46,084 nt of DNA from Bacteroidales bacterium (lineage in GTDB: Bacteria; Bacteroidota; Bacteroidia; Bacteroidales; Bacteroidaceae). Under the pieces are notes generated by a model. That model did not search any database, was not told the DNA's origin, and saw only the letters and a program-made list of their open reading frames with translations. The position numbers and the translations under genes were made by a program. Positions 170 through 15,083 of the stretch are shown piece by piece; position 1 is the first letter of the stretch, and each line of letters starts with the position of its first letter. The DNA lies in assembly GCA_015060965.1 (NCBI GenBank), contig SUXN01000023.1, positions 1-46,084 on the forward strand, given 5' to 3'.

Positions 170-320
170 AGGGTCAACAAGACCCTCTCCGAGGCTTTGC
201 CTCTCGTCTCCCTAAAACAGGGAGACAATAGTTTTTTTTAACGGAAAGCTGCGGATACCCTTAACCTGTCATCCGTTGCCTTTAACCCATAATCCCTTAA
301 CCTTTCTCCCCTCACCCGCA
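170..320 (-). repeat. Composite repeat: G-tract block plus two-hairpin element, copy 1 (minus)
   Basis: Read on the minus strand, this is a GGGTTAAGGG-rich block (about 240-320) followed by the R1 element with core hairpin GTCTCCCT / AGGGAGAC at 206-226 and second hairpin GAGGC-ttt-GCCTC at 191-203. Two near-identical copies lie in the opposite orientation at about 4220-4380 and 10743-10880. Copies 1 and 2 therefore bracket the first sialidase gene as inverted repeats. Confidence 0.85.
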
Positions 321-356
321 GTCCTTTACAAAACGGTAATTTTTCTTTACGTTTAC

Positions 357-675
357 GGGTAACAAATCTCCCTGTTTTATACAGCAAAATCCGCCTCAGG
401 GGTATCTGTGGCCTTTAAGTGGGCGTTAATCAAACAACTTTTGCAACCACTTGATATCCAAAAGAAAAACCCGTCTCTTTTGGAGGCGGGTAACAAACTG
501 GTAACAAAAGATGAAATTAAAATTCAGCTACAGATGAAAACTATTTTTTGGTCATCAAAGACGTTTCCTTGCAAAAAGCGATTCACAAGGTATCTAATCA
601 AGGCTTCAACGAAAACTCAAGAGTGCGTTTCCGGGTAACAAAACTGCAAAAAACGGGTAACAAACGGGTAACAAA
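357..675 (+). repeat. Cluster of GGGTAACAAA motifs
   Basis: The decamer GGGTAACAAA occurs at 357-366, 488-497, 633-642, 655-664 and 666-675, with a one-mismatch copy (TGGTAACAAA) at 499-508. Spacing is irregular, so this is not a simple tandem repeat. It may be a decayed end of a mobile element or a run of protein-binding sites; I cannot tell which. Confidence 0.6.
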
Positions 676-701
676 ATGTGTGAAATAACGTTTTAAAGGT
701 T

Positions 702-790
702 TAGGGGTTATAGGTGAGGGGTTATGGGAACCGTTGCTGTAAACCTTTATGCCTTTGTCGTTTATCTTAGTTGCTCTTTTTTTAAAAGGG
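702..790 (+). repeat. ~90-bp direct repeat, copy 2
   Basis: Second copy of the segment at 80-166, again with a G-rich start, GCTGTAAACCTTTATGCC and the TTTATCTTAGTTGCT tail. It is followed by GACCCTCTCCG, the edge of a two-hairpin repeat. Confidence 0.8.
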
Positions 791-865
791 TCAGGGGTTA
801 ATGAGACCCTCTCCGCACTGCTTCGCGAAGCTGATACACATTTAGCCCCTCACCGCTTCGCGGAG

Positions 866-955
866 CTCCCCTTGATTACAAACAAGGGGAGCAGCTGTTT
901 GTGTTTGGCGCCAAAGTTATAAGATCTTTAGGGTCTATAGTGGGAGCTATTTAAA
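866..955 (+). repeat. 88-bp interspersed repeat R3, copy 1
   Basis: The unit opens with the hairpin CCCCTTG / CAAGGGG, continues through GTTTGGCGCCAAAG and ends in GGGTCTATAGTGGGAGCTAT. Further copies are at 1017-1106 and 8196-8290. The first two are nearly identical, which points to recent duplication. Confidence 0.85.
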
Positions 956-1016
956 TCCGCAAGGTGGGGTTAAATTTGAAGTTATGGTTTTAGCTCCTCA
1001 GTCACTCCGTGACAGC

Positions 1017-1106
1017 TCCTCTTAATTACAAACAAGGGGAGCTGCTGTTTGTGTTTGGCGCCAAAGTTATAAGATCTTTAGGGTCTATAGTGGGAGCTAT
1101 TCAAAC
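1017..1106 (+). repeat. 88-bp interspersed repeat R3, copy 2
   Basis: Near-identical to 866-955 apart from one arm of the opening hairpin (CTCTTAATTACAAAC instead of CCCCTTGATTACAAAC) and a single change in the GCAGCT/GCTGCT step. It is preceded by a reversed R2-type hairpin (CAGTCACTCCGTGACAG, 999-1015). Confidence 0.85.
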
Positions 1107-1109
1107 GGC

Positions 1110-1205
1110 CAATTCAACCCTCTCCGCAACTCCGTTGCTTGTCTCCCTAATACAGGGAGACAATAGCTTTTATATTCCTCCCCCTGACACGCAGTGACTG
1201 ATGGG
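1110..1205 (+). repeat. Two-hairpin repeats R1 and decayed R2
   Basis: An R1 element with second hairpin GCAAC-tcc-GTTGC (1126-1138) and core GTCTCCCT / AGGGAGAC (1141-1161) is followed by a decayed R2 element (CCTCCCC then ACGCAGTGACTGATGGGTA). The same R1-then-R2 order recurs at 7910-8050 and 8291-8400. Confidence 0.75.
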
Positions 1206-1661
1206 TATGTTTCGCTAAACGTTAAGCCCGTTGGGCTTGAGCCTGCTCCCGCTCGGCATAATAAAAGCAAGCTTTTCCTCTACAATTAACTTTGTTGATT
1301 TTTCGTTCGCTCGTTGCAAGAGCTCAATCAAGCTTGGCTCTTACTTGCTACCCCTCACCCCTCACCCCTCACCCTTGACCCTTATATATAAATAAGGTAT
1401 AGATTCAATCAACTTTTAATAGGGCTCTAAACTATCTTTTGTTTTTTGCTTTTTGTGGGGGCTTTTCTTGCGAGGATTGCTTTGATTTTAACACTGCGCT
1501 GTTAAATTTAATGTATTTTTATGCGGGTTTTATAAGTAACTTTTTGTTACTGATTTTAAACTTGTTTCAGATTTATTGGTCTTTATTGGTAGGTTAATCG
1601 TGATAAAAAGTCCAAAATGGATGAAAAAACAGCCGCTTTGTGCATTTTTTCTATAAAAAAG

Positions 1662-1693
1662 TTGGAACTTGTTAATATTTATATCTACATTTG
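1662..1693 (+). promoter_or_regulatory. Bacteroidetes-type promoter of sialidase 1
   Basis: A -7 box matching TAnnTTTG lies at 1686-1693 and a TTG (-33 element) at 1662-1664, 21 bases upstream. Transcription would start near 1700. This places the start codon at 1768 and excludes the upstream in-frame start at 1669. Confidence 0.6.
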
Positions 1694-1767
1694 CCGAAAC
1701 GTATCATTTTGATTTTTTGCGTTTATTGCAATACTGCGGACAAAATGAACCTGGTAAAACGATTACT

Positions 1768-4152
1768 ATGATAAAGAAATTACTGACTTTTGTGGCACTT
1801 TCAGCCGCAACTATTTTTACTGCAAATGCGCAGACTACACTTTTTCACAGTGACACAAACAATTCATTGCCATACCGTATTCCTGCCATTGTGCAGACAA
1901 GCAATGAGGATATTCTTGTCTTTGCGGATAAACGCTACGGCGGTGGTGATGTAGGACAGAATGGCTCAAATTCATCACGTATTGATGTTGTCTACAAACG
2001 CTTCTCTGGTAATACCTGGGGAAATGAGACTACTGTAAAGGCAGGTACCAATAGTTTCGGTTATGGCGATGTTGCTGTAGTAGCAGACCGTGAGAATCCT
2101 GCAGAGTTAGTCTTCTTTACAGCAGCTGGAAATATCTTCTTTACAAACTCAGAGAATAGCGACGGTAAAAGACTGCAATGTTATCGTTTCAATAGCAGTA
2201 ATGGTGGTGCAACTTGGACTGAGGGTACAGATGTTACTAGTCAGGTTTATGACTTAGCTTCAGATTATACAGGTGCTTTTTTTAGCAGTGGACGTATTTG
2301 CCAAAGTTCGCAAATTAAGGTTGGTTCGCACTATCGCCTTTATGCGGCTCTATGTGTGGGTGAAACAACGGGCCTTATTTTTAAAAGTACAAAGACATAT
2401 TCTTTGGTAATATACTCCGATGATTTCGGTTCAACATGGAATCTTTTGGGTACACAACCAGTTATTGGAGAAGGCGGTGACGAAGCAAAGTGCGAAGAAC
2501 TTCCCAATGGAAATGTGCTTGTAAGCAGCAAAGGAAAGAGTACACGCTATTATAATGTGTTCAAATACAATTCTTTCCCGACTGCACCAAATACTGCGGA
2601 CGGAAATTGGAGTGGGAAGGTCGACGGTTGTAGCTCGCAAGATGCAAATGGTACAAATGGTGAGTTGCTCTTGGTGCAGGCAAGCAAAAATGGTCAGAAC
2701 TGTTATTTGGTTATGCAGACCATACCGGCGAACAGCACATCTGGCACAACCCGCAAAAATGTCACAATATATTGGAAAGAACTTGATACGACAGACCTAA
2801 ACGATGCGTATCAGTTCTCAGGCGCATGGCCTAATACCAAAAGCCTGTCAGATACTACCTCATCATATTCTACAATGATTCAGCTCGCCGATGGTACAAT
2901 AGCATTTGCGTATGAGGAAAACTATTATTCGATAAGCAAGGGTGGATATGATATCCAGTACAAGAACCTGAATATCTCGGACATTGCAACCGGTTATACC
3001 CTTCCGGTAATTGCTGCCCCTGTCATCAGTCCTGCGGGTGGCGAAGTAGAGAAGGGTACACAGGTTGAAATAACAGGCCCAACGGGTGCTACAATCTACT
3101 ATACAACAGACGGCAATGACCCCACAACTTCTTCTGCTGTGTATAATGGCCCGATTACAGTGGATAACGATATGACTATCAAGGCTATTGCTGTAAAAAG
3201 AGCATGGACTGATAGTGCGGTATCTACAGCGACATTCACTGTAAAAGCCGCTGCTCCTGTAGAGAAAGTGGCATCTCCAACCTTCAGCATTGCCGGTGGT
3301 GAGGTTGAAGAGGGTACAACAGTTACAATCAGTTGTGCTACAAGCGGTGCGACAATCTACTACACTACCGACGGCAATGAGCCTACTACTTCATCGGCAG
3401 TATACAGCGGTGCAATTACAGTGAACAAGGCTATGACTATCAAGGCTTTTGCAGCCAAGGATGGTTATACCGACAGTGAGGTTGTTTCTGCTACATTCAC
3501 AATCAAGGAGGTTGTTGTTGAACCTGAGGTTACTGAGCATCCTGTGACTCCTGTTTCAGGTCTTATCGGCGGAACAACATACTATCTTGCGACATTCAGC
3601 GCAAATGAGAATACTGTGGCTCCTGCGGGTGTGAGTGTATTCTACGTGAAGACTGTAAGCAGCGACGAGGTGGCTCTGTCACGCGTGTCAAGCGGCAAGA
3701 CTATCCCTGCCGGTGAGGGTGTAATCCTGATGGCAAGCAGCGCGTCGGCGTTCAACATGACTTCAACGACTGACGAGAGCAATGTGGCTGACTTCAGCGA
3801 CAACTGCCTTGCCGCTACCGGTGACGTTGTTGATTTCACTTTCAATGTTGAGAACTGCTACGCATTGGCAGTGAAGGGCTCTGGCGAGCTCGCCGGGCAG
3901 TTCGCATTCTGCAAGGTTGCTGCGGGTACTACTCTCAACGGCTATAACAACCGTGCTTATCTCGACTTGTCGGCTTCGGGTGCGTCGTTCAGCAACAACG
4001 TACGTGTCTCGTTCGACGGTGTGACTGGTATCGAGTCGTCGGTTGAGGAGTTCCAGGAACAGGTTATCTATGACATCTGTGGCCGCAGAGTCCATGAGAT
4101 GAAACCGGGTAACATTTACATAGTAAACGGCAGGAAAGTACTGAAAAAGTAA
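1768..4152 (+). CDS. Secreted exo-alpha-sialidase with two chitobiase C-terminal-like repeats (sialidase 1)
   Basis: Predicted GH33 sialidase of 794 residues that would cleave terminal sialic acids from glycoconjugates outside the cytoplasm. A signal peptide (MIKKLLTFVA onward, cleavage after TANA before Gln22) is followed by a beta-propeller domain to about residue 410. It has the YRIP motif (Arg37, first catalytic Arg), Asp boxes (SNGGATW, SDDFGSTW), the EELPNG Glu, Arg in STRYYNVF, Arg in TTRKNVT and Tyr in SSYSTM, so the catalytic set looks intact. Two chitobiase/hexosaminidase C-terminal-like repeats (nt 3010-3245 and 3274-3510), a beta-rich domain (3538-4050) and a sorting-like tail (VIYDICGRRV, ending NGRKVLKK) follow. 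Paralogues at 4733 and 8882. The catalytic half is visibly more AT-rich than the tail. I chose the ATG at 1768 because it starts the signal peptide and lies downstream of the promoter. Confidence 0.88.
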   Translation: MIKKLLTFVALSAATIFTANAQTTLFHSDTNNSLPYRIPAIVQTSNEDILVFADKRYGGGDVGQNGSNSSRIDVVYKRFSGNTWGNETTVKAGTNSFGYGDVAVVADRENPAELVFFTAAGNIFFTNSENSDGKRLQCYRFNSSNGGATWTEGTDVTSQVYDLASDYTGAFFSSGRICQSSQIKVGSHYRLYAALCVGETTGLIFKSTKTYSLVIYSDDFGSTWNLLGTQPVIGEGGDEAKCEELPNGNVLVSSKGKSTRYYNVFKYNSFPTAPNTADGNWSGKVDGCSSQDANGTNGELLLVQASKNGQNCYLVMQTIPANSTSGTTRKNVTIYWKELDTTDLNDAYQFSGAWPNTKSLSDTTSSYSTMIQLADGTIAFAYEENYYSISKGGYDIQYKNLNISDIATGYTLPVIAAPVISPAGGEVEKGTQVEITGPTGATIYYTTDGNDPTTSSAVYNGPITVDNDMTIKAIAVKRAWTDSAVSTATFTVKAAAPVEKVASPTFSIAGGEVEEGTTVTISCATSGATIYYTTDGNEPTTSSAVYSGAITVNKAMTIKAFAAKDGYTDSEVVSATFTIKEVVVEPEVTEHPVTPVSGLIGGTTYYLATFSANENTVAPAGVSVFYVKTVSSDEVALSRVSSGKTIPAGEGVILMASSASAFNMTSTTDESNVADFSDNCLAATGDVVDFTFNVENCYALAVKGSGELAGQFAFCKVAAGTTLNGYNNRAYLDLSASGASFSNNVRVSFDGVTGIESSVEEFQEQVIYDICGRRVHEMKPGNIYIVNGRKVLKK

Positions 4153-4169
4153 GCCTGAATAGCATAGAA

Positions 4170-4198
4170 AAAGGGTTGGAGGTCTCCTCCGACCCTTT
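4170..4198 (+). terminator. Hairpin terminator after sialidase 1
   Basis: A 13-bp stem (4170-4182 with 4186-4198, one G-T pair) starts 18 bases after the stop codon. No T-run follows, so termination may be inefficient or factor-dependent. Confidence 0.6.
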
Positions 4199-4219
4199 GG
4201 CCTTAAATAACGATGATTG

Positions 4220-4380
4220 GTGAAGGGTGAGAGGTGAAGGGATTATGGGTTAAGGGCAACGGATGACGGGTTAAGGGTATCCGCAGCTTTCCGTTTTCAC
4301 CTATCCGTTTCCCGTTATAAATACTATTGTCTCCTTGTGTTAGGGAGACGAGAGGCGCTGCCTCGGAGAGGGTTGATTAA
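4220..4380 (+). repeat. Composite repeat: G-tract block plus R1, copy 2
   Basis: The block holds five GGG tracts separated by short loops at 4239-4277, then the CCGCAGCTTTCCGTT link, then R1 with core hairpin at 4329-4349 and second hairpin GAGGC-gct-GCCTC at 4352-4364. It is an inverted copy of 170-320 and a direct copy of 10743-10880. Confidence 0.85.
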
Positions 4381-4390
4381 TTGTTAAGAA

Positions 4391-4530
4391 ATAACCCCTC
4401 CGCCCTAAAGGGCACCTGATTGCGCCCCTGTTTTAGGGGAGCTGTCGGTTTACCGACTGAGGGGTTATGCCAGGGGAGGAATATATAAAAGCTATTGTCT
4501 CCCTGTATTAGGGAGACGAGCGAAGCGGAG
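4391..4530. repeat. R2 hairpin pair and R1 element
   Basis: A minus-oriented R2 (hairpin GCCCTAAAGGGC, about 4402-4413) abuts a plus-oriented R2 (CCCCTGTTTTAGGGG, then GTCGGT-tt-ACCGAC at 4444-4457). A minus-oriented R1 follows, with core 4497-4517. The same R2 pair recurs at 11061-11140 with identical hairpin stems. The remainder to 4732 has no gene and contains the sialidase 2 leader. Confidence 0.8.
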
Positions 4531-4650
4531 AGGGTCAATTAATTGTTGAAAAATAACCCCTTCGGTACCTTATGACAGGGCCCTTCGGGACTCCTTTAGG
4601 CCCTTATAAACCGGCGCCCAACCAGGCCACACTAAAAGATGATTTTTGTT

Positions 4651-4680
4651 CCTTGTATAAGGTCAAGGTACCATACAAGG
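4651..4680 (+). promoter_or_regulatory. 8-bp inverted repeat upstream of sialidase 2
   Basis: CCTTGTAT (4651-4658) and ATACAAGG (4673-4680) are perfect inverted repeats separated by 14 bases, 52 bases before the start codon. It could be an operator or a leader hairpin. I found no clear TAnnTTTG box next to it. Confidence 0.45.
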
Positions 4681-4732
4681 TTAAAAATAAGAGAGAGAAA
4701 ACACACATTAATTAACACTAAAATTAATGATT

Positions 4733-7717
4733 ATGAACATCAGAAAATTTGCGCTTGTGGCAATGACATTGTCAGCCATGGGCTTCTCTTCGATGAACGC
4801 CCAGACAGCGGCCTCAGCTGTCGACGGCAAGAAACAGACAATTTATTTGTCGGCTAACCATGCTTCAACACCCTACCGCATCCCTGCTGTAGCTACACTG
4901 AACAACGGTACAGTGCTTGCTATCGCTGACCATCGTCCTTGCGGTGCTGACATAGGTAACGGCGAGGTTGATCTTTATGCAAAGGTGGGTACCATTGCGG
5001 CCAACGGCTCTTACAGCTGGAATCCTTCGGCTATCGACCCATCTGTAAGCGGCGGACTCAAGATTGCTGACGGTGACAGCAGCAACGGTTACGGCGACGC
5101 GGCGGTAGTTGTAGACCGCGAGAGTGGTAAGGTACTCGTTATCTGTGTATCGGGTAAGGTGGTGTTCTCACAAGGTTCATCATTAAAGCACAACAAGATG
5201 GCACGCATTGTGGGCTCTGCCGACGGCCTCAGCTGGGAGACTCCACAGGATGTGACAACTGCTTTCTTTGACAACCTGTTGCCGAGTGCGTATACAATGT
5301 TCATGGCATCGGGTAGAATGATTCAGTCACAGCACGTGAAGGTGGGCAACTACTACCGTATATACGGCGTTCTCCTTGTACGCGAGAAGAGCGGCTGGTT
5401 CAGCAAGTCAAACAACAACTATGTGGTATACTCTGATGACTTCGGTGCAAGCTGGAAGGTCCTTGGCGGTTCATACTGCCTGAAGGGCGGCGATGAGGCC
5501 AAGGTTGAGGAGTTGCCTAACGGTGACCTTGTGATGAGCAGCCGTACAAGCGGTGGCCGTTACTTTAATGTCTTCAAGTTCACTGACCTTAACTCTGCAT
5601 CAGGCTCATGGGGCAGTGCCACAAAGTACAGCTTCGGCGGCAGCAACAGCACCAACGGTGAGCTCATGCTCTACAAGGGTCTTGTTGACGCCAACGGCAC
5701 TGAGTACAACGTGATGCTCCAGTCACTCCCCACAGGCAGCAGCCGCAGCAACGTTGCTGTGTTCTACAAGGCTTTTGCGACAAGCAAGACCTCTTGGGCC
5801 GTAAGTGACTTCACAAGCGGCTGGACAAAGGGTATCGAGGTTGACGACGGCTTATCTGCTTACTCTACAATGACTATCCTGCCTAACGGTCAGGTAGGCT
5901 TCCTCTATGAGGAAGGCAATGACACAAGCAATGCTGATGCTGACTATTTTAATATCGTTTATGTTCCTCTTACAGTCGAGGAGATTACAGGCGGTGCATT
6001 CAGCGCTCCTGCAACAGGGGAGCCCGAGGCTCCTGCTGTAGCTGTAGAGACTCCTGCCTTCAGCATTGCCGGTGGTGAGGTTGAAGAGGGTATAACAGTA
6101 ACAATCTCTTGCGCAACTGAGGGCGCAACAATCTACTACACAACTGACGGTACAGAGCCTACAACATCATCAGCTGTATACAGCGGTGCAATCACAGTGA
6201 ACAAGGCTATGACCATCAAGGCTATGGCTGCCAAGGAGGGTAACTACACCGACAGTGAGGTTGCTTCTGCCACATTCACCATCAAGTCACGTGAGGTTGT
6301 CGCTACTCCTGTCATCAGTCCTGCGGGCGGTGAGGTTGCTGCAGGTACAGCTGTTACCATCAGCTGCGCTACAAACGGTGCTACAGTATACTACACAACC
6401 GACGGTTCAACACCTACAACATCATCAGCTGTTTACAGCGGTGCAATCACTGTGAACAGTGCAATGACCGTCAAGGCTATGGCTGCAAAGAACGGTTACT
6501 ATACAAACAGCTCTGTTGCTACTGCTGCGTTCACAATCAAGGTTGAGGCTGTTGCCGTTTCAACTCCTGTCATCAGCCCTGCCGGCGGTGAGGTGGAGGA
6601 GGGTACAACAGTTACCATCACTTGCGCTACAGAGGGTGCAACAGTATACTACACAACTGACGGTACAGAGCCTACTACATCATCAGCCGTTTACAGCGGT
6701 GCAATCACAGTGAACAGCGCAATGACAATCAAGGCAATGGCTGCCAAGAGCGGTAACTACACCAACAGCGGTGTCGCTACAGCCACATTCACTATCAAGG
6801 AGGTTATCGTTGAGCCTGAGACTCCGGTTGAGCCAGAGGAGCCCGAGACTCCTGTAATTGACGAGGCTCTGCAGCAGGCTATCGTTGCAGCCCAGGAGGT
6901 TGCTGCTTGTGCCGGTGTAGGTTATCCTTCATCAAGCGCCGCTACACGTGTAGCCCTCGACAATGCTATTGCAAATGCTCAGGCAGGCAACGCTACGGTA
7001 AGCGACCTTGAGAATGCAGTAAGCGCATTCAAGAACGAGGTAAACGACATCCAGATGCCAGAGGACGGTGTTACATACAAGTTCGTGAACGTTGCACAGA
7101 ACGGTACAAGATATTACATCAATTATGCTTCATCAGGTATCAGCATGGTGACAGACGAGTCACAGGCTACAGAGTATACCTGCGAGGCTATCGGTGGCGA
7201 TGAGTATGCTTTCGTTACAAGCGACGGCAGATACCTCATCTGGAAGGGTCCTAACGGTACCGAGGGCTGGTTGTTCTGGAAGAAGACTTACGGCTATAAC
7301 AGCAACAAGGGTTATGTGACAAGCTACAACAGCACATACTGTGACCTCGTTGTCGAGAAACTTACCAACGGTGGCAACGTAAGCGCAAGCAGCAATGCCG
7401 ACCTCTTTGGTATGATGGCTATCCAGGGTATGCGTTACTCACGCAGCGAGTATGGCTACTTCACCATCAAGAGCGACGGTACATTCGATGCTTCATCCGA
7501 CCCATACTACAACAGCTCATACTCATCGGCATTCTACATTGTAGCTACAGGTACAGCTGCCAAGGGTAGCCGCATCGAGGGCACAACAGCCGTTGAGGAG
7601 ATTACTGTAGAGAGAGTTGCCGATGACGCAATCTACGACCTCACAGGCCGCAAGGTAACTGAGATGCGCGCCGGTGAGATTTACATCCAGAACGGCAAGA
7701 AGATCCTGAAGAGATAA
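4733..7717 (+). CDS. Secreted exo-alpha-sialidase with three chitobiase-like repeats and lectin-like C-terminus (sialidase 2)
   Basis: Predicted GH33 sialidase of 994 residues, the largest of the three. The signal peptide ends SMNA before Gln24. The propeller carries TPYRIP (Arg49), SDDFGASW Asp box, EELPNG, GGRYFNVF, SRSNVAV and SAYSTM, so all expected catalytic positions are filled. Three chitobiase C-terminal-like repeats (nt about 6046-6285, 6300-6540, 6560-6800), each with the core IYYTTDG or VYYTTDG, precede a Pro/Glu linker, a helical FIVAR-like stretch (6865-7060) and a Tyr-rich domain of possible lectin type (7063-7590). The tail AIYDLTGRKV ending NGKKILKR resembles the sorting tails of its paralogues. 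An ATG two codons upstream (4727) is an alternative start. Codon use is more uniform and C-ending than in sialidases 1 and 3, suggesting higher expression. Confidence 0.88.
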   Translation: MNIRKFALVAMTLSAMGFSSMNAQTAASAVDGKKQTIYLSANHASTPYRIPAVATLNNGTVLAIADHRPCGADIGNGEVDLYAKVGTIAANGSYSWNPSAIDPSVSGGLKIADGDSSNGYGDAAVVVDRESGKVLVICVSGKVVFSQGSSLKHNKMARIVGSADGLSWETPQDVTTAFFDNLLPSAYTMFMASGRMIQSQHVKVGNYYRIYGVLLVREKSGWFSKSNNNYVVYSDDFGASWKVLGGSYCLKGGDEAKVEELPNGDLVMSSRTSGGRYFNVFKFTDLNSASGSWGSATKYSFGGSNSTNGELMLYKGLVDANGTEYNVMLQSLPTGSSRSNVAVFYKAFATSKTSWAVSDFTSGWTKGIEVDDGLSAYSTMTILPNGQVGFLYEEGNDTSNADADYFNIVYVPLTVEEITGGAFSAPATGEPEAPAVAVETPAFSIAGGEVEEGITVTISCATEGATIYYTTDGTEPTTSSAVYSGAITVNKAMTIKAMAAKEGNYTDSEVASATFTIKSREVVATPVISPAGGEVAAGTAVTISCATNGATVYYTTDGSTPTTSSAVYSGAITVNSAMTVKAMAAKNGYYTNSSVATAAFTIKVEAVAVSTPVISPAGGEVEEGTTVTITCATEGATVYYTTDGTEPTTSSAVYSGAITVNSAMTIKAMAAKSGNYTNSGVATATFTIKEVIVEPETPVEPEEPETPVIDEALQQAIVAAQEVAACAGVGYPSSSAATRVALDNAIANAQAGNATVSDLENAVSAFKNEVNDIQMPEDGVTYKFVNVAQNGTRYYINYASSGISMVTDESQATEYTCEAIGGDEYAFVTSDGRYLIWKGPNGTEGWLFWKKTYGYNSNKGYVTSYNSTYCDLVVEKLTNGGNVSASSNADLFGMMAIQGMRYSRSEYGYFTIKSDGTFDASSDPYYNSSYSSAFYIVATGTAAKGSRIEGTTAVEEITVERVADDAIYDLTGRKVTEMRAGEIYIQNGKKILKR

Positions 7718-7842: not shown

Positions 7843-7854
7843 AGCGGAATATGA

Positions 7855-7892
7855 AAAAGCCACAGCTTCACACCAGTGAAGCCGTGGCTTTT
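7855..7892 (+). terminator. Strong intrinsic terminator after sialidase 2
   Basis: A 17-bp stem with one mismatch (7855-7871 and 7876-7892) ends in TTTT and is followed by GTTTTG. The A-run on the 5-prime side makes it potentially bidirectional. Confidence 0.85.
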
Positions 7893-7909
7893 GTTTTGCG
7901 ATTAGCGGT

Positions 7910-8060
7910 TAGCGAGACCCTCTCCGCAACTCCGTTGCTCGTCTCCCTAACACAGGGAGACAATAGCTTTTATATATTCCTCCCCTGCTATAACCCCTAT
8001 AATATTTCTCCCCTGTTTTAGGGGAGGTGGCTGAAAAGCCGGAGGGGTTATTTTTCAAAT
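7910..8060 (+). repeat. Two-hairpin repeats R1 and R2
   Basis: R1 has second hairpin GCAAC-tcc-GTTGC (7926-7938) and core 7941-7961. R2 has CCCCTGTTTTAGGGG followed by GGCT-gaaa-AGCC (8029-8040) and GGAGGGGTTAT. The gap 7893-8753 contains no gene; it is filled by this and the next repeats. Confidence 0.8.
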
Positions 8061-8195
8061 TAATAGCCCCTCTCCGCACTGCTTCGCGAAGCTGATACAC
8101 ATTTAGCCCTTCACCGCTTCGCGGAGGGCCCTTCGGGACTCCTTTGTAAAGCTAAAGCTTCAGTCGTCGCAAACATTGCTCGTTCGCAATGGCCA

Positions 8196-8290
8196 CCTTG
8201 ATTACAAACAAGGGGAGCAGCTGTTTGTGTTTGGCGCCAAAGTTATAAGGTCTTTAGAGTCTATAGTGGGAGCTATTTAAACGGCTAATT
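8196..8290 (+). repeat. 88-bp interspersed repeat R3, copy 3
   Basis: Third copy of the unit at 866-955, with CCTTGATTACAAACAAGG, GTTTGGCGCCAAAG and GTCTATAGTGGGAGCTAT. It differs from the first copies by a few substitutions (AAGGTCTTTAGAGTC) and again leads straight into an R1 element. Confidence 0.85.
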
Positions 8291-8560
8291 CGACCCTCTC
8301 CGCAGCTTCGTTGCTCGTCTCCCTAATACAGGGAGACAATAGCTTTTTATATATTCCTCCCCTGTCCTTAGGGGAGCTGTCACGCGGTGACTGAGGGGTA
8401 TGTTTCGTTAAACGTTCATCGCTAACCTATATTCCTCCCCTGACCTTAGGGGAGGTGCCCTTTAGGGCGGAGGGGTTATTTTTCAACAATTAATCGACCC
8501 TCTCCGAGGCTTTGCCTCTCGTCTCCCTAATACAGGGAGACAATAGCTTAGGGGCCTTAA
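8291..8560 (+). repeat. Series of two-hairpin repeats (R1, R2, R2, R1)
   Basis: In order: R1 with GCAGC-ttc-GTTGC (8302-8314) and core 8317-8337; R2 with GTCAC-gcg-GTGAC (8379-8391); R2 with GCCC-ttta-GGGC (8457-8468); R1 with GAGGC-ttt-GCCTC (8506-8518) and core 8521-8541. The second hairpin differs each time but stays paired. Confidence 0.8.
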
Positions 8561-8569
8561 TGGGCACTA

Positions 8570-8635
8570 TTTCCTTAACCTTTAACCCCCACCCTTCGCC
8601 CTTAACCTTTAACCTCTAACCCTTCACCCGTTGCC
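8570..8635 (-). repeat. C-tract (minus-strand G-tract) microrepeat array
   Basis: Degenerate repeats of CCCTTAACC and TTTAACC with runs of CCC every 6-10 bases. On the minus strand it resembles the GGGTTAAGGG blocks at 4239-4277 and 10766-10804. Confidence 0.65.
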
Positions 8636-8753
8636 TCTCTTGTTAAATATTCCGCTCTAAACGGTTCAGTAGCTTGTTGTTAAAATGTTGTTGTTTATAG
8701 AAATGTTGCGTTGATTGTATATATATAGGTATTTATATATAAAGGATTTTTTG

Positions 8754-8761
8754 TAACTTTG
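8754..8761 (+). promoter_or_regulatory. -7 box of sialidase 3 promoter
   Basis: TAACTTTG matches the Bacteroidetes -7 consensus exactly and is followed by C. No clear TTG is seen at the usual -33 distance. The predicted 5-prime leader is about 110 bases long and holds two short hairpins (AGGGC/GCCCT at 8789-8803 and GAGCC/GGCTC at 8848-8861). Confidence 0.65.
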
Positions 8762-8881
8762 CACCCGATTTTGCAGGGGCGTTTCCGGAGGGCTTTATGC
8801 CCTGTTTTTGTGACGTTGTTCCTGCTGACAAACATTGAAATATAAAAGAGCCGGAGGGCTCAAACAAAAACAACTTATTTT

Positions 8882-10732
8882 ATGAAAAAAAATCTTTTGA
8901 TTGCCTTGGCGCTTGTTGCCACAGGCATTTTCTCTGCGAGCGCGCAGGATGATGTGTTCTTGTCTACTGGAGCTGAACGTCCGTACCGTATTCCGGCAAT
9001 TGCAACATTGAAAGATGGTAGTCTGCTTGCAATCAGTGACTATCGCCCCTGTTACAAAGATGTCGGTAACGGCGAGGTTGATATGTATGCCAAGGTGGCT
9101 ACTATGGATGCAGCAGGGAATTACTCATGGAACGTAGAGGCAGAGCGTATTGCCGATGGTAAAGATGACAATGGATATGGTGATGCTGCGCTTGTGGTAG
9201 ACCGTGAGAGTGGCGATGCGCTTGTAATATGCGTATCAGGAAAAGTTGTATATGGCAGTGGCTCGTCAACAACTCATAATGGAATGTCACGCATTGTTCG
9301 TTCTGCCGACGGCCTCAGCTGGGAGACTCCACAGGATGTGACAACTGCTTTCTTTGACAACCTGTTGCCGAGTGCGTATACAATGTTTATGGCATCGGGC
9401 AGAATGTTGCAGTCTAATATCGTAAAGGCCGAAGGTGCTGAATATTATCGTATCTATGGTGCTCTGTTGGTTGATGGCAGTGAAGGTGAGGGCAACTACG
9501 TTGTATATTCCGATGACTTCGGCAATAGTTGGAACCTGCTTGGTGACGGTATGTGTGTTAGGGGTGGTAACGAGGCAAAACTTGAGGAGCTGCCTAACGG
9601 CGACATTGTAATCAGCAGCCGTGCCAATGGTGGCCGTATATTCAATGTCTTTAACTTTACAAATCTTCAAACTGCCGAAGGTAATTGGGAAGGACAGCCT
9701 GATGAAGTCTATAATTTTGAGGGTAATGTTGCCAGTGCTTCCGGTAAGAGCGGATGTAATGGCGAACTTCTTTTCTACAAGGGGCTTGTAAATGTAAATG
9801 ACGGTAAGACATATAACGTGATGCTTCAGTCTTTGCCTGCAGGAACCAGTGGTAATGAAAAGCGTAGTAATGTTACTGTTTTCTATAAGGCTTTTGAGGC
9901 GGACAAGACCTCTTGGGCTGTAAGTGACTTCACAAGTGGTTGGGCAAAGGGTCTTGAGGTTGATGGTGGTGAATCGGCTTACTCTACAATGACAATCCTG
10001 CCTAATGGTAATATCGGTTTCCTGTATGAAAGCGAGGAGGTGGGGTTCGTAAAAATTCTTTTCTTTGGATACCAATATTATGGCTACAATATCAAGTTTC
10101 GTAATCTTACAGTAAACGAGATTACCGGCGATGCATACAAGAATCCTGCCTATTCTGTAAACCTCAACGAGTGTACCATCGACGGCGAGTCAAAGGCGTT
10201 GGCTACGTTCAGTGCTCCGGTGTCAACAAGATGTCCCGAGGGTGTTGCTGCATATTACATCAAGGCTATGGACAATGGCTATGCAAAGCTTGAGGCAGTT
10301 GAGGAGGGCAAGACTATCCCTGCCGATGCGGGTGTGATGCTTATGGCGGATGCTGCCGGCAGCTACACGATGACCGGTGTGGGTGAGTTTGCCGACGCGG
10401 CTCTCACAGACAACATGCTTGTGGGAAGCAGCAACGGTACTGTCACTTTCGGCGGTGGTGTCGAGGGCTATATCCTCAAGGGCGACGGCCAGGGCGGTGT
10501 GGCTTTCTACAAGGCTACCGGTACGCTGGGCAAGAACAAGGCTTATCTGAACCTCGACGGCGCGGAACTGAGCGCGGGTGTGCGCATCACTATTGACGGC
10601 ACAACTGCTATTGAGGATGTTGTTGAGGTACAGGGTGCCGAGGATGTCATCTATGACCTCTACGGCCGCCGCGTGAGCGAGATGCTGCCGGGTAACATTT
10701 ACATCGTAGGTGGCAAGAAGGTGTTGAGATAA
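8882..10732 (+). CDS. Secreted exo-alpha-sialidase without chitobiase repeats (sialidase 3)
   Basis: Predicted GH33 sialidase of 616 residues. Signal peptide MKKNLLIALA ... SASA, cleaved before Gln22. Catalytic features: RPYRIP (Arg36), SDYRP with the candidate acid/base Asp, Asp boxes SADGLSW and SDDFGNSW, EELPNG, GGRIFNVF, KRSNVTV and SAYSTM. The propeller is followed directly by the beta-rich domain (about 10150-10610) also found in sialidase 1 and by the sorting-like tail VIYDLYGRRV ending GGKKVLR. An 86-nt stretch (9302-9387) is identical to sialidase 2 although the flanks have diverged. The last ~550 bp are far more GC-rich than the rest, so the gene looks chimeric. The ATG at 8882 opens the signal peptide. 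Confidence 0.88.
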   Translation: MKKNLLIALALVATGIFSASAQDDVFLSTGAERPYRIPAIATLKDGSLLAISDYRPCYKDVGNGEVDMYAKVATMDAAGNYSWNVEAERIADGKDDNGYGDAALVVDRESGDALVICVSGKVVYGSGSSTTHNGMSRIVRSADGLSWETPQDVTTAFFDNLLPSAYTMFMASGRMLQSNIVKAEGAEYYRIYGALLVDGSEGEGNYVVYSDDFGNSWNLLGDGMCVRGGNEAKLEELPNGDIVISSRANGGRIFNVFNFTNLQTAEGNWEGQPDEVYNFEGNVASASGKSGCNGELLFYKGLVNVNDGKTYNVMLQSLPAGTSGNEKRSNVTVFYKAFEADKTSWAVSDFTSGWAKGLEVDGGESAYSTMTILPNGNIGFLYESEEVGFVKILFFGYQYYGYNIKFRNLTVNEITGDAYKNPAYSVNLNECTIDGESKALATFSAPVSTRCPEGVAAYYIKAMDNGYAKLEAVEEGKTIPADAGVMLMADAAGSYTMTGVGEFADAALTDNMLVGSSNGTVTFGGGVEGYILKGDGQGGVAFYKATGTLGKNKAYLNLDGAELSAGVRITIDGTTAIEDVVEVQGAEDVIYDLYGRRVSEMLPGNIYIVGGKKVLR

Positions 10733-10742
10733 CGTTTAACGT

Positions 10743-10880
10743 CGAAGGGTGGGGTTAAAGGTTAAGGGATTATGGGTTAAGGGCAACGGATGACGGGTTA
10801 AGGGTATCCGCAGCTCTCCGTTAAAAAAACTATTGTCTCCCTGTATTAGGGAGACGAGAGGCGAAGCCTCGGAGAGGGTA
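10743..10880 (+). repeat. Composite repeat: G-tract block plus R1, copy 3
   Basis: Five GGG tracts (10766-10804), the CCGCAGCTCTCCGTT link, then R1 with core 10835-10855 and second hairpin GAGGC-gaa-GCCTC (10858-10870). It is a direct copy of 4220-4380, so the pair brackets sialidases 2 and 3. Confidence 0.85.
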
Positions 10881-10917
10881 ATTAAAGTGTTGAACGCGGG
10901 TGTTTTGTGCTGAACGG

Positions 10918-11165
10918 TAACCCCTCCGGCTTTTCAGCCACCTCCCCTAAAACAGGGAAGGAATATATAAAAAAGCTATTGTCTCCCTGTATTAGGGAGA
11001 CGAGCAACGAAGTTGCGGAGAGGGTCTTGTTACACGTCAACTATTTTACCGGCGCCAATAAAACTCCTCCGCCCTGAAGGGCACCTGATTGCGCCCCTGT
11101 TTTAGGGGAGCTGTCGGTTTACCGACTGAGGGGTTATGCCAGAGGAGGACTCAGTTGTCGGCAGA
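10918..11165. repeat. R2, R1 and R2 hairpin pair
   Basis: A minus R2 (GGCT-tttc-AGCC, 10928-10939), a minus R1 with core 10981-11001 and hairpin GCAAC-gaa-GTTGC (11004-11016), then an R2 head-to-head pair like that at 4391-4470, with GTCGGT-tt-ACCGAC at 11113-11126. No gene lies between 10733 and 11243. Confidence 0.8.
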
Positions 11166-11243
11166 TGAGATGCAAGCTTGGGACATAACCTTGTAATCAC
11201 TGTATTGTTTAAACTTTTGAATTGACATTAAAATATTTGGACT

Positions 11244-11399
11244 ATGAAAAAGAATTATATTGCACCTTTTGCTGTAGAGGTTGATATTACAGCGGAAAAC
11301 ATGATTGCGACTTCTGTTCCTGTAAAGGAGGAAGAGGGTAACGCCGGCGAGGCGTGGTCTAATGACCGTCGCGGAGATTGGGGAAATCTTTGGAACTGA
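11244..11399 (+). CDS. Small 51-residue protein of unknown function
   Basis: An ATG opens a 51-codon frame beginning MKKNYIAPFAVEVDITAENM, continuing IATSVP and an acidic Gly/Glu region, and ending DWGNLWN. I recognise the pattern from many Bacteroidales genomes: a short protein starting K-K-x-Y-x-x-P, a central M-I-A-x-S and a Trp-containing acidic C-terminus. To my knowledge the function is unknown. No signal peptide, no transmembrane segment, no cysteine. It stands alone between repeats and a terminator. It could be a secreted or modified peptide precursor, but nothing nearby looks like a processing enzyme. Confidence 0.7.
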   Translation: MKKNYIAPFAVEVDITAENMIATSVPVKEEEGNAGEAWSNDRRGDWGNLWN

Positions 11400-11490
11400 T
11401 TTCTCTTCGTTAAACGTTACACGTTAATCGTTTTACCTGACGCCTTAAGGTCCTGAAGTCTTTAGGATTCTTAATGGGCGCGGATTGAAT

Positions 11491-11540
11491 AAAACAAAGC
11501 ACAGGGGCTTCCCGTATGAGAAGCCCCTGTGCTTTGTTTT
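11491..11540. terminator. Bidirectional intrinsic terminator
   Basis: A perfect 21-bp inverted repeat (11491-11511 and 11520-11540) with an 8-base loop, AAAA on one side and TTTT on the other. It can end transcription of the small protein gene on the plus strand and of ribH on the minus strand. Confidence 0.9.
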
Positions 11541-11694
11541 ACTTCGTGCGACCTATTGCTGCAAGTGCTGTCGGAACGCCATCATCTGCTCTTTTGCACA
11601 TTGACACCACTTGCTTACCGCAACCCGCACTTCGTGCGACCTATTGCTGCAAGTGCTGTCGGAACGCCATCATCTGCTCTTTTGCGCATTGACA
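11541..11694 (-). repeat. 66-bp direct repeats carrying palindrome P arms
   Basis: 11541-11606 and 11629-11694 are almost identical, period 88 bp. The second contains a full palindrome: GACACCACTTGC (11603-11614) facing GCAAGTGCTGTC (11649-11660) around an inner GCAC-ttc-GTGC. The first has only the GCAAGTGCTGTC half (11561-11572), the rest being replaced by the terminator. The array lies immediately downstream of ribH. The gap 11400-11747 has no other gene. Confidence 0.8.
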
Positions 11695-11768
11695 ATGCCG
11701 TCTTATCGCACCCCGCGAGGCGCCAATTTCATCGGCGCTTCTCGCGACTATTTGCTGCCGGCATTGTC
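11691..11768 (-). repeat. Palindrome P1 overlapping the end of ribH
   Basis: GACAATGCCG (11691-11700) and CGGCATTGTC (11759-11768) are perfect arms of a 78-bp palindrome with inner stems CGCGAG/CTCGCG and GCGCC/GGCGC. The right arm encodes Asp-Asn-Ala of ribH and the ribH stop lies inside it. Confidence 0.8.
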
Positions 11769-12248
11769 GAAGTGCAGTGACATCATTTGTAATGCTGTCA
11801 CTGCACATTCATCGCCTTTGTTGCCAAGGCGGCCGCCACTGCGCTCCTGTGCCTGAAGCAGGTTGTTGGTGGTTATGAGGCCGAAAATGACGGGCACGTC
11901 ATACTCTACATTGAGTCTTGAGAGGCCTGCTGTGACGCCCTCGCAAATATAATCGAAGTGTGGTGTGTCGCCACGTATCACACAACCTATGGCTATGACG
12001 GCGTCGTAGTTGCCGCTCTTTACCATCTGTGATGCTCCGAAGATGAGCTCGAAGCTGCCAGGCACGCTGGCGAGGGTGATGTCGTTCTCCTCGACACCGT
12101 TCTCTATAAGGGTCTTTACCGCTCCGTCGCGCAGTGCGTATGTTATCTCGTCGTTCCACTCGGCATATACAATGCCTACACGGCGTCCCTTGCCGCTTGC
12201 TACCTTGGTGGGGTCGTAGCTTGAAAGGTTCTTGAGTTCTGTTGCCAT
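11748..12248 (-). CDS. ribH: 6,7-dimethyl-8-ribityllumazine synthase
   Basis: Lumazine synthase, 166 residues; condenses 5-amino-6-ribitylamino-uracil with 3,4-dihydroxy-2-butanone 4-phosphate in the penultimate step of riboflavin synthesis, in the cytoplasm. Family motifs are clear: GIVYAEWN near residue 26, VPGSFEL, AIGCVIRGDTPHFDY (with the catalytic His after RGDTP) and the C-terminal block GNKGDECAVTAL. The ATG at 12248 gives MATELKNLSS; an in-frame upstream start at 12311 has no family support. The last residues (FDNAGSK) and the stop are encoded by a palindromic repeat, so the C-terminus may have been reshaped by that element. No FMN riboswitch is visible upstream. A terminator separates it from the upstream TPR gene. 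Confidence 0.93.
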   Translation of the reverse strand: MATELKNLSSYDPTKVASGKGRRVGIVYAEWNDEITYALRDGAVKTLIENGVEENDITLASVPGSFELIFGASQMVKSGNYDAVIAIGCVIRGDTPHFDYICEGVTAGLSRLNVEYDVPVIFGLITTNNLLQAQERSGGRLGNKGDECAVTALQMMSLHFDNAGSK

Positions 12249-12364
12249 AATTTCTCTTTGGTGAAGGTTTGTTGTAGTTTCTACCCCCTCCGGACCTTGT
12301 GAGATCCTCATCCCCCTGATGCAGGGGCAATAGACAAAAGGGATATTGTCTGTCTCTGTGTAAT

Positions 12365-12402
12365 AAAAAAGGCTGTCACATACAAGTATGCGGCAGCCTT
12401 GT
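12365..12402 (-). terminator. Intrinsic terminator of the TPR gene
   Basis: On the minus strand AAGGCTGCC...GGCTGTCACATAC-type arms (12369-12383 with 12386-12400) form a long stem with one mismatch, followed by CCTTTTTTATTAC. It lies about 20 bases past the TPR stop, so ribH probably has its own promoter. Confidence 0.8.
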
Positions 12403-12418
12403 ACTGTTCCTTTTTAAG

Positions 12419-13092
12419 GATTACTTTGCTGAGTTGAGCTGTCTGTCGATCTCGCCAGTGAGAACGAGTACGCAGCTTGGGTACTCCTTCTTGATTCTCT
12501 CGTAGAGCTCTACAGCCTCGGCTGTCTTGCCCTGCTGCTCATACATTGCTGCTACGTCTCTCAAGCAGAATGGAGTAACGGCCTCGTTGTTTGCGCTGTT
12601 GGCAGCGTCGAGGATAAGGCTGATAGCCTTGTCTGTGTCACCTGTGTGTGCATAGCAGTTGCCGAGAGCGTGCTTTACCTTCTGTGCAACGATAGCATCG
12701 TCACCGTCAAAGTCCTCGAGGTACTGGATAGCCTCCTCATAGTTCTCCTGCTTTGCCAATGAAAGACCTGCATATGCCTTTGCAAGGTTGCCTGCCTTTG
12801 TGTTGCCGTACTCGTCGGCAATGGCTCTTGTACCCATGTTGATACCGTCACCGTCGAGTGACTCTGCATGGTTGCCGGCCTCGAAGTTCTGCACTGCAAC
12901 AACCATAGCCTTGTTTGCCTCGTTGTTCTGTGGCTCAAGGATGAACTTTGTGTAACCAAGATATGCCACTACCAACAATACTACAGCCAAAACGACGCCT
13001 GTGATTGTCTTCTTGTTATTGAGGACAAATGCCTCTGACTTTCCAAGTGCCTCATCGGCAAGGATTGGAGTCTCTTTCTCTTTTTTGCTCAT
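12419..13092 (-). CDS. Membrane-anchored tetratricopeptide repeat protein
   Basis: Protein of 223 residues with an N-terminal cytoplasmic stretch, one transmembrane segment (about residues 30-50, TGVVLAVVLLVVAYLGY) and TPR-like helical repeats after it (GNLAKAYAGLSLAKQENYEE; HALGNCYAHTGDTDKA; AAMYEQQGKTAEAVELYERI). The layout resembles YfgM, an ancillary protein of the Sec translocon, and this gene type commonly sits between ribH and recF in Bacteroidales. The function is not proven here. Its promoter is divergent from that of recF; a TATTTTTG box on the minus strand at 13168-13175 is a good -7 candidate. The exact 3-prime end is the TTA at 12421-12423 (minus strand TAA). Confidence 0.8.
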
Positions 13093-13167
13093 GATTTTAT
13101 CTAATTTTTTGTTTTTTTATCTTGCTTGTGCGGTGTGTACCTAATATACACAATCCGTAACATTGCG

Positions 13168-13175
13168 CAAAAATA
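13168..13175 (-). promoter_or_regulatory. -7 box of the TPR gene
   Basis: Minus-strand TATTTTTG fits TAnnTTTG and is followed by C; the start codon lies about 75 bases downstream. The intergenic stretch 13093-13446 holds this, the recF promoter and small palindromes such as GGATGCATCC (13418-13427); no gene. Confidence 0.5.
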
Positions 13176-13270
13176 ATCAAATTATTGTTCGCTTGAAAAT
13201 AATAAATGATTTTTTTGCTCTTTTGTGGAGTTATCTTCCTTTTTATGGGGCTTTTTACGTGATTCGTGTG

Positions 13271-13278
13271 TATATTTG
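13271..13278 (+). promoter_or_regulatory. Candidate -7 box of recF
   Basis: TATATTTG followed by C matches the Bacteroidetes -7 consensus and predicts a leader of about 160 bases. A weaker alternative, AAACTTTGC, lies nearer the gene at 13392-13400. Confidence 0.45.
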
Positions 13279-13446
13279 CAGTAAACTGGGACATGGACCA
13301 TAGGGCGGCTTGCCGCACTCCTTGGGGAAACTTGGGCTCCTGTTGTCGCAGGCAACGCTGATTTCGTGTTGCCACAGTGAAATGTCAAAGTAAACTTTGC
13401 ATATTGTCCGGGTGATCGGATGCATCCGGATTGAATATATTACGGG

Positions 13447-14571
13447 ATGAAAATAAACAATATATCTCTTCTCAACTACAGGAACCTGCGCGAGGTGGAC
13501 ATTGCCCTCTCGCCAAAGGTCAATTGCCTTATCGGACGCAACGGTATGGGCAAGACGAATCTGCTCGACGCTGTATACTATCTGTCGTTCTGTAAGAGTA
13601 CGGTTACGGCAACAGACAACTCCAATATATTGCACGACGAGCTGTTCTTTATGCTGCAGGGCTGCTATGTGAGCGACAGCGGTATCGAGGAGGAGATTTC
13701 ATGCGGCTTCAAACGTGGCGAGAAGAAGCAGTTCAAACGTGGGGGCAAGGCTTACGAGCGTCTGTCGGACCATATCGGCTCGATACCTCTTGTGATGGTC
13801 TCGCCTGCCGATAATGAGCTCATTGCCGGTGGCAGTGAGGAGCGCAGGCGTTTTATGGATATGGTAATCTCGCAGTATGACAAGGAGTATCTGGCTGCCC
13901 TGATACGTTACAACAGGGCGCTGCAACAGCGTAATGTGATGCTGCGTGCCGATTATGCCCCTGATGCGGAGATGATGTCGCTCATTGAGGATATGATGGT
14001 GGCCGAGGCGGTGCGCATAAACCGTGGACGCAAACAGTTCGTGGAGGAGCTTGTGCCTATATTCTCGCAGTTCCACAGCACCATAACGGGTGACAGCGAG
14101 CAGGTGAGCCTGCGCTACCGTTCGCACCTGAATGACGGTGACCTGGGTGAGCTGTTGGCGGCTTCGCGTACCGATGACCGCAATTTGGGTTATACTTCCA
14201 AAGGTACTCACCGTGACGAGCTGGTGATGCAGCTTGGCGGTTACCCCATAAAGAAGGAGGGTTCGCAAGGGCAGAACAAGAGTTTTCTTGTGGCGCTGAA
14301 ACTGGCGCAGTTCGACTTCCTGCGCCGCAAGGGAGGCGAGACGCCTCTGCTGTTGTTGGATGATATCTTCGACAAGCTCGACAGCAGCAGAGTTGAGCAG
14401 ATTGTGAACCTTGTGTCGGGCGAAGGCTTCGGGCAGATATTCATCACTGATGTGAACCGTGAGCATATCGACAGCATACTTGAGAGCATAGATAGCGGCT
14501 ACAGGCTTTTTGAGGTGAAGAAAGGTGAGGTTGAACTGTTGAAGGAACGGGCTGTAGAAACGGAAATGTGA
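13447..14571 (+). CDS. recF: DNA replication and repair protein RecF
   Basis: RecF, 374 residues, an SMC-like ABC ATPase that with RecO and RecR loads RecA on gapped DNA. Walker A is GRNGMGKT (residues about 30-37), the signature is near SQGQNKSF, and Walker B is LLLLDDIFDKLD; the N-terminal MKINNISLLNYRNL is typical. It is divergent from the TPR gene and followed, after a repeat-filled 671-bp gap, by the DUF721 gene that usually follows recF directly in Bacteroidales. The insertion of repeats into this spacing is unusual. The last codons merge into short GAAATGTGAAAGCTGA repeats after the stop. Confidence 0.95.
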   Translation: MKINNISLLNYRNLREVDIALSPKVNCLIGRNGMGKTNLLDAVYYLSFCKSTVTATDNSNILHDELFFMLQGCYVSDSGIEEEISCGFKRGEKKQFKRGGKAYERLSDHIGSIPLVMVSPADNELIAGGSEERRRFMDMVISQYDKEYLAALIRYNRALQQRNVMLRADYAPDAEMMSLIEDMMVAEAVRINRGRKQFVEELVPIFSQFHSTITGDSEQVSLRYRSHLNDGDLGELLAASRTDDRNLGYTSKGTHRDELVMQLGGYPIKKEGSQGQNKSFLVALKLAQFDFLRRKGGETPLLLLDDIFDKLDSSRVEQIVNLVSGEGFGQIFITDVNREHIDSILESIDSGYRLFEVKKGEVELLKERAVETEM

Positions 14572-14624
14572 AAGCTGAAAACGGAAAACTGAAATGTGAA
14601 AGTTGAGCCGAAACAGGCGGTTTT

Positions 14625-14650
14625 GTCATCCTGACGAAAGGAAGGATCTC
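14625..14650 (+). repeat. GTCATCCTGA / GGATCTC extragenic element
   Basis: GTCATCCTGA followed by CGAAAGGAAGGATCTC forms an ATCCT/AGGAT hairpin. From memory, very similar short extragenic motifs are scattered in many bacterial genomes; their role is not established. Confidence 0.5.
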
Positions 14651-14694
14651 AAAAAAATATGAACGACTAAAGCTGTAAATCAAGAGCTTCGGTA

Positions 14695-14724
14695 TTTTGA
14701 ATGAAATGAAATGAGGTGAAAGCC
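14695..14724 (+). repeat. Copy of the DUF721 gene start motif
   Basis: The stretch TTTTGAATGAAATGAAATG continuing AGGTGAAAGCC matches the beginning of the DUF721 gene (15232-15260) and another copy at 15099-15127. Here and at 15099 it stands directly before a palindrome arm. Confidence 0.7.
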
Positions 14725-14733
14725 GCAGGCTTC

Positions 14734-15083
14734 GACAACAGTTGCAGCGATAGGTCGCAGGTAGCTCTCCCACCCCTCAGTCGGTAAACCGACAGGGCTT
14801 CTTCGAAGACTCCTTTGTGGCGCTAAAGCACCAGTCGTCGCAAGGTTTGTGCCAGCGAGTGGGTGGAAGCTTGCTTACACACACAACGAGCGCAGACAAA
14901 GCTCGCTGAAAGCAATGCAGTGCTGTGGCTCGCAATGTCCCCTTGAAATGTGGAGCAACTAAAAACGGGAATTGGTCAATTGAAACTTGAATAAAGCTCC
15001 TCCCCACGTGTGGGGAGGTGGTCGCAGACCGGAGGGGAGATATTCTAAATGTGCAATGCGGGTCGCGGCAGGCAAGTGTTGTC
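14734..15083 (+). repeat. Palindrome P3, split by inserted repeats
   Basis: GACAACAGTTGC (14734-14745, followed by AGCGATAGGTCGC) and GCAAGTGTTGTC (15072-15083, preceded by GCGGGTCGCGG) are the arms of the same palindrome type as P4 but lie about 330 bp apart. The interior holds an R2-type hairpin (GTCGGTAAACCGAC, 14780-14793), a CAGTCGTCGCAA segment shared with 8161-8171, and an R2 element (CCCCACGTGTGGGG with GGTC-gca-GACC, 15002-15030). This reads as insertion of other repeats into a palindrome. Confidence 0.65.

Follow-up and report, generated by a model that had tools for sequence, protein, structure and literature searches.

What are the two-hairpin repeats that recur across a 46,084-nucleotide contig of a Bacteroidales bacterium, and what spreads them? 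This contig (SUXN01000023.1 of assembly GCA_015060965.1; C4 in our numbering) was analysed complete and is referred to here as the window; its genome (G000) comprises 2.59 Mb in 69 contigs. Two kinds of element, R1 and R2, were studied. They are members of a repeat family that several bacterial phyla share and that flanks genes of DUF559, a small DNA nuclease with relatives among the homing endonucleases; this suggests that DUF559 is the enzyme that spreads the repeats. The comparisons cover a genus set of 44 genomes and a phylum sample of 394 Bacteroidota genomes, both counting the window's own genome, as well as a cross-phylum scan of named genomes that returned at least 119 stretches, together holding 171 elements; by record titles these include Bacteroidota, Clostridia, Negativicutes, Bifidobacterium, Sphingomonadaceae, and Kiritimatiellae. 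We call the R1-type pattern class I and the R2-type pattern class II/III, and used the reversed pattern as a control.

A first-pass annotation, made from the sequence alone, had described R1 and R2 as two branches of one design, and their common layout of head, variable hairpin, and pyrimidine-rich core hairpin bears this out. The R1 consensus is ACCCTCTCC-G[stem]C-TC-GTCTCCCT-AANAC-AGGGAGAC-AATAG, and R2 follows the same plan as CCCCTC(C/A)-G[stem]C-A(C/G)-CTCCCCT-loop-AGGGGAG. All nine annotated R1 cores are present (206, 1141, 4329, 4497, 7941, 8317, 8521, 10835, and 10981), five on the plus strand and four on the minus strand; the exact core occurs 28 times genome-wide, against 0 for the reversed pattern, and a covariance model, the check proposed with the annotation, gave 33 genome-wide matches, a few of them of R2 type. 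The window holds about ten R2 copies, among which every stem variant named earlier was recovered (GTCGGT/ACCGAC, GGCT/AGCC, GTCAC/GTGAC, GCCC/GGGC, and GGTC/GACC). The suggested likeness to repetitive extragenic palindromic (REP) elements also stands in copy number and mosaic arrangement: many extragenic palindromic copies occur in mosaic or dimer arrays, with tandem units of about 124–166 bp. Across the genus set, class I is found in 17 genomes and class II/III in 25, the reversed control in none; in the phylum sample the R2-type pattern occurs in 6 of 394 genomes, including the window's own.

Clustering of open reading frames (ORFs) near the elements brought out, in five loci, a small endonuclease family that was absent from the first-pass annotation. 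Two genes in the window's own genome match this family, DUF559 (Pfam PF04480), at 112.3 and 113.9 bits against a cut-off of 20.6, and it is found in 221 of the 394 sampled Bacteroidota genomes. In 36 sequences, residues E22, D51, D64, H68, and D77 are invariant, as in an EDxHD/Vsr-type fold and active site; the spacings of 29, 13, and 4 are also those between E73, D102, D115, and H119 of Caulobacter VsrA, while the last differs (9 vs 5), as judged from the available part of the source (PMC12907096).

Pyrimidine hairpins adjoin or enclose DUF559 genes much more often than they do other genes. The feature scored was a hairpin with a 6-bp all-pyrimidine arm containing at least three C, within 200 bp, in loci of sufficient length: 18 of 30 in the genus, 25 of 30 in the phylum (these 30 being the best-scoring of a search with 221 positive genomes), and 27 of 30 across phyla, where genomes were picked because they carry the element. 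Near DUF559 it was present in 30/36 windows of the genus, against 5/108 far away; the corresponding counts are 38/50 vs 5/150 for the best-scoring phylum loci and 45/54 vs 5/162 across phyla, so that distant windows carry it in 3–5% of cases. The comparison gene wecB gave 5/48 near and 2/144 far. Because intergenic DNA is richer in hairpins, intergenic windows beside other ORFs were added as a comparison, and these have the hairpin in 5/19, 1/24, and 5/32 cases (4–26%). Loci within each set share ancestry, so p-values for these contrasts overstate independence. Among stand-alone DUF559 genes of the genus with a full ORF, 17 of 20 have scanner matches in their flanks; the remaining three are L269, whose class I elements the covariance model detects, and L255 and L257, which show none. 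Flank pairs share direct matches of at least 12 nt in 14/18 genus, 10/25 phylum, and 12/27 cross-phylum loci, and inverted matches of that length in 1/18, 6/25, and 18/27. As a separate observation, in G006:C16 (L034/L100) class I elements stand on both sides of a DUF559 gene, three of them at 154 bp spacing.

The window itself is tied to one such gene. In the window's own genome, the DUF559 gene on C56 sits inside a tandem array of R2-type units, and parts of this array are 97% identical to window positions 14773–14843 and 79% identical to 14938–15057. The second gene, on C44, is flanked at either end by class I-type elements whose core is GTCCCTCT.

Alleles of wecB show the gene and its hairpins together and apart. 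Of 25 genus loci compared, 17 have a short linker, three (L277, L285, L298) have shorter variants that are partly hairpin-like, two (L283, L272) carry hairpin sequence without a DUF559 gene, and three (L271, L275, L284) carry hairpin-DUF559-hairpin in frame; the outer hairpins of L283 and L284 are nearly alike, with the gene absent from the one and present in the other. DUF559 is also carried by 18 long ORFs, of which ten were checked: LeuRS and MetH came up three times each, and type ISP, N6_N4 methylase, HsdR, and HsdM domains once each.

Is it pairing, rather than sequence, that the variable hairpin keeps, as first proposed? In relatives it is; the own genome alone comes close to the condition named in advance as refuting the idea, hairpin variants confined to two or three types. 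Its R1 stems have three forms only, the main types GCAAC/GTTGC and GAGGC/GCCTC and a shorter one, GCTTCGC. Double-sided changes occur at three pairs, and it is the same 8 of the 27 distinct sequences that show them (29 copies, from 31 matches less one that was spurious and one without a head). With so few forms, the covariation claim needed data from relatives. There, 38 distinct class I stems keep pairs 1–4 in 35–37 cases, against shuffle maxima of 26–32. The matches listed for class II/III, which span several phyla, contain 138 distinct stems, 119 of them long enough for a pairing test; among these 119, sequence varies almost freely, and pairs 3–5 hold in 114, 113, and 112 (shuffle maxima 66, 65, and 73), pair 2 is paired in 111 but uninformative (shuffle maximum 108), and pair 1 is paired in just 59. 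In 51% of the 171 elements listed, the stretch left open by the search pattern folds into a hairpin of 6 bp or more; shuffles do so in 0.7% of cases. Of the eight combinations of head, junction, and closing bases that the pattern allowed, only two turn up among these elements, C-C-G in 99 and A-G-C in 72.

The further claim, that paired changes mean the structure is being kept, holds for pairing but need not hold for selection, as template switching also fits. This process, described for RNA hairpins, yields compensatory changes mutationally (PMC8794818, as far as the available part of that paper goes). In one genome, and for stems picked after viewing, loops on the same stem are reverse complements of each other in two pairs among 16 loops (p 0.0013) and four among 13 (p 0.025), which fits such switching. 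Stem diversity probably comes in part from template switching within the hairpin. For the suggested use of the variable stem as an address or type tag no evidence emerged, though no test was aimed at it directly.

We consider it fairly probable that R1 and R2 are non-autonomous ends, solo or paired, of mobile elements that end in hairpins and, where they carry a gene, code for a DUF559 nuclease. DUF559 would be the mover, and it quite likely drives the repeats rather than lodging in them. It probably recognises the folded ends, or single-stranded DNA exposed during replication, and would nick there; repair would then copy an element or an end pair into new sites, for the most part intergenic but at times inside a host gene and in its frame. 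Copies without the gene, such as the R1/R2 mosaics, would amplify in trans, as REP elements do in bacterial interspersed mosaic elements (BIMEs), and the variable stem would be renewed, probably in part, by template switching inside the hairpin. The broader proposal, of an unrecognised class of mobile elements in which DUF559 acts as a transposase-like driver of two-hairpin ends, with autonomous copies, in-frame insertions, and non-autonomous REP-like repeats across many phyla and stems renewed by template switching, we hold at close to an even chance.

Several observations weigh against DUF559 as the driver. R1's own subtype is the weakest link, as it was not seen beside a DUF559 gene: the R1 core GTCTCCCT is on neither own-genome contig carrying one (C44, C56), the C44 array has no match of at least 35 bp in the window, and in the C44 elements the variable stem, judged by eye, shows poor pairing. 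Two genus loci, 5 of 25 phylum loci, and one cross-phylum locus lack the pyrimidine hairpin on either side; loci in each set share descent, the LeuRS and MetH cases recurring; and inverted ends are the rule in the cross-phylum set only, the genus being dominated by tandem arrays. Of 25 genus genomes that lack a strong DUF559 match, 12 have elements all the same. In one genome, G001, 63 copies of class I and 131 of class II/III go with only a weak match; either they amplified once the gene was lost, or the assembly, 85% complete, does not include it. At wecB, one site, other sequence takes the place of the linker instead of splitting it cleanly, with no clean target duplication visible, and no insertion with target duplication was seen among the loci compared. 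The type ISP, N6_N4 methylase, HsdR, and HsdM cases might be working fusions, not insertions; DUF559 could be a passenger settling in hairpin arrays; and the own genome does carry the rare Y1_Tnp gene. In G001, we also observed several copies in alternating orientation about 50 bp apart (L227, L236).

That Y1_Tnp gene bears on the first-pass suggestion that the repeats are REP elements spread by a REP-associated tyrosine transposase (RAYT; Y1, HUH), which as a resident driver is largely refuted and which we regard as very improbable. Mosaics of short interspersed hairpins, placed head to head and tail to tail, do look like REP/BIME, and a Y1_Tnp gene is present, the only one in the genome (L001 1250–2230, G000:C29), but it is surrounded by a different repeat, and the scanner found no pyrimidine-core element beside it, though one lies about 4 kb off in L026. 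The hairpins around it (GCCCTGAAGGGC, GGCCGTGAGGCC) form a separate REP-like set, and its Y motif, by eye, is like that of RAYT subclass 1.2, which generally lacks terminal IS200-type structures according to the available part of PMC6006769. Among the 44 genus genomes 5 have a Y1_Tnp gene, as does 1 of the 14 genomes examined for bearing the elements, and none was found in the single-contig element-bearing genomes G222 (40 copies) and G073. The GT[AG]G foot was not seen in the R1 consensus or the listed elements, by reading rather than by a computed scan; atypical feet are known from subclasses 2.6 and 3, the repeats of Bacteroidota subclass 2.6 are atypical (PMC6006769, same part), and G022 of the genus has a 2.6-like gene, judged from motifs.

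A second alternative dispenses with a dedicated enzyme: slippage during replication, template switching, and recombination would enlarge the arrays, with DUF559 a selfish passenger favouring hairpin-rich DNA. The tandem units, the reverse-complementary loops (with the scope given above), and the element-rich genomes without a strong DUF559 match fit it. We nevertheless think it unlikely, though worth keeping in view, because fully coupled bases in one cross-phylum layout require a common recogniser or repeated transfer, window elements match those around an own-genome DUF559 gene, and DUF559 lies between inverted ends in 18 of 27 cross-phylum loci. The stems paired in relatives and the intergenic position of the window copies would equally suit structured RNAs, terminators, or mRNA-processing signals under selection, yet both strands are used, in inverted mosaics, one copy lies inside the wecB coding sequence (L272), and a Rfam search of the window gave 0 matches at the gathering score; we give this explanation hardly any credence.

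If DUF559 does move these ends, a large and mostly unexplained class of palindromic repeats gains a candidate driver, and a family found in 221 of 394 sampled Bacteroidota genomes gains a role. REP-like systems would then have arisen more than once, with unrelated nucleases, and enzymes such as LeuRS and MetH could host a homing-type nuclease within their reading frames. The stems would also provide a concrete case in which compensatory changes may be mutational rather than a product of selection on structure.

Positions of R1 and R2 elements in the window, with strand and variable stem
Element	Position	Strand	Remark
R1 (class I), stem GAGGC-TTT-GCCTC	181..231	+	
R2 (class II-like), stem CCGC-TTC-GCGG, core GCTCCCCTTG..CAAGGGGAGC	844..892	+	
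R2 (class II), stem GTCAC-TCC-GTGAC	994..1042	+	
R1, stem GCAAC-TCC-GTTGC	1116..1166	+	
R1, stem GAGGC-AGC-GCCTC	4324..4374	-	
Double-headed R2, stems GCCC/GGGC and GTCGGT/ACCGAC facing one common core hairpin	4395..4464	.	second copy 97% identical at 11062-11149
R1, short stem GCTTCGC	4492..4534	-	
R1, stem GCAAC-TCC-GTTGC	7916..7966	+	
R2 (class III), stem GGCT-TTTC-AGCC	8007..8049	-	
R1, stem GCAGC-TTC-GTTGC, one G-U	8292..8342	+	
R2 (class II head), stem GTCAC-CGC-GTGAC	8356..8400	-	
R2 (class III), stem GCCC-TAAA-GGGC	8434..8477	-	
R1, stem GAGGC-TTT-GCCTC	8496..8546	+	
R1, stem GAGGC-TTC-GCCTC	10830..10880	-	
R2 (class III), stem GGCT-TTTC-AGCC, core off by one base	10919..10961	+	
R1, stem GCAAC-TTC-GTTGC	10976..11026	-	
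Double-headed R2, second copy	11064..11133	.	
R2-type head, stem GTCGGT/ACCGAC, and downstream unit	14773..14843	+	97% identical over 71 bp to DUF559 array G000:C56
R2 (class III), stem GGTC-TGC-GACC at 14997-15039	14938..15057	-	flank 79% over 122 columns to G000:C56 array

The R1 and R2 elements occupy gaps around three neighbouring sialidase-like ORFs (BNR_2, below the curated cut-off) at 1669–4152, 4727–7717, and 8882–10732. The second and third contain near-identical patches (5174–5342 and 9260–9428, 85%), which suggests gene conversion. Degenerate short repeats resembling GGGTTAAGGG or TTAACCC, and others resembling GTTTAACG, surround many elements (60–340, 4210–4300, 8575–8650, 10740–10820), and an 88-bp tandem duplication with 90% identity lies at 11541–11716.

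Among known systems, Rickettsia palindromic elements are palindromes able to lie within coding genes while keeping the frame; they differ from R1 and R2 in sequence and host, and are not known to have an associated nuclease. CGTC-tagged palindromes are REP-like, have Bacteroidetes among their host phyla, and are reported without a dedicated transposase in the available part of Di Nocera 2013 (PMC3733652). Neither the R1 consensus nor the class II/III pattern has their unpaired end CGTC tag and CCA-like tail: the GTC of R1 lies inside the core stem, with AATAG as tail, and R2 has CACC or CAGC in place of CGTC. The extra variable hairpin is not described in that part of the paper. The EDxHD homing endonucleases (I-Bth0305I, 3r3p) and Vsr share the fold and conserved residues of DUF559 (PMC3943268, available part), and differ in that the DUF559 gene is wrapped by hairpin repeats or lies in frame in ORFs of other proteins. 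Closest are the REPtrons, combining REP/BIME with RAYT, in which, as here, short hairpin repeats occur in mosaics, many per genome, and flank one small nuclease gene. The partner here is DUF559, with its Vsr/EDxHD fold, instead of an HUH Y1 enzyme, and R1 and R2 have two hairpins, one of them hypervariable, with no GT[AG]G foot seen. The R1/R2 system is best read as one that may work like REP/RAYT with an unrelated enzyme.

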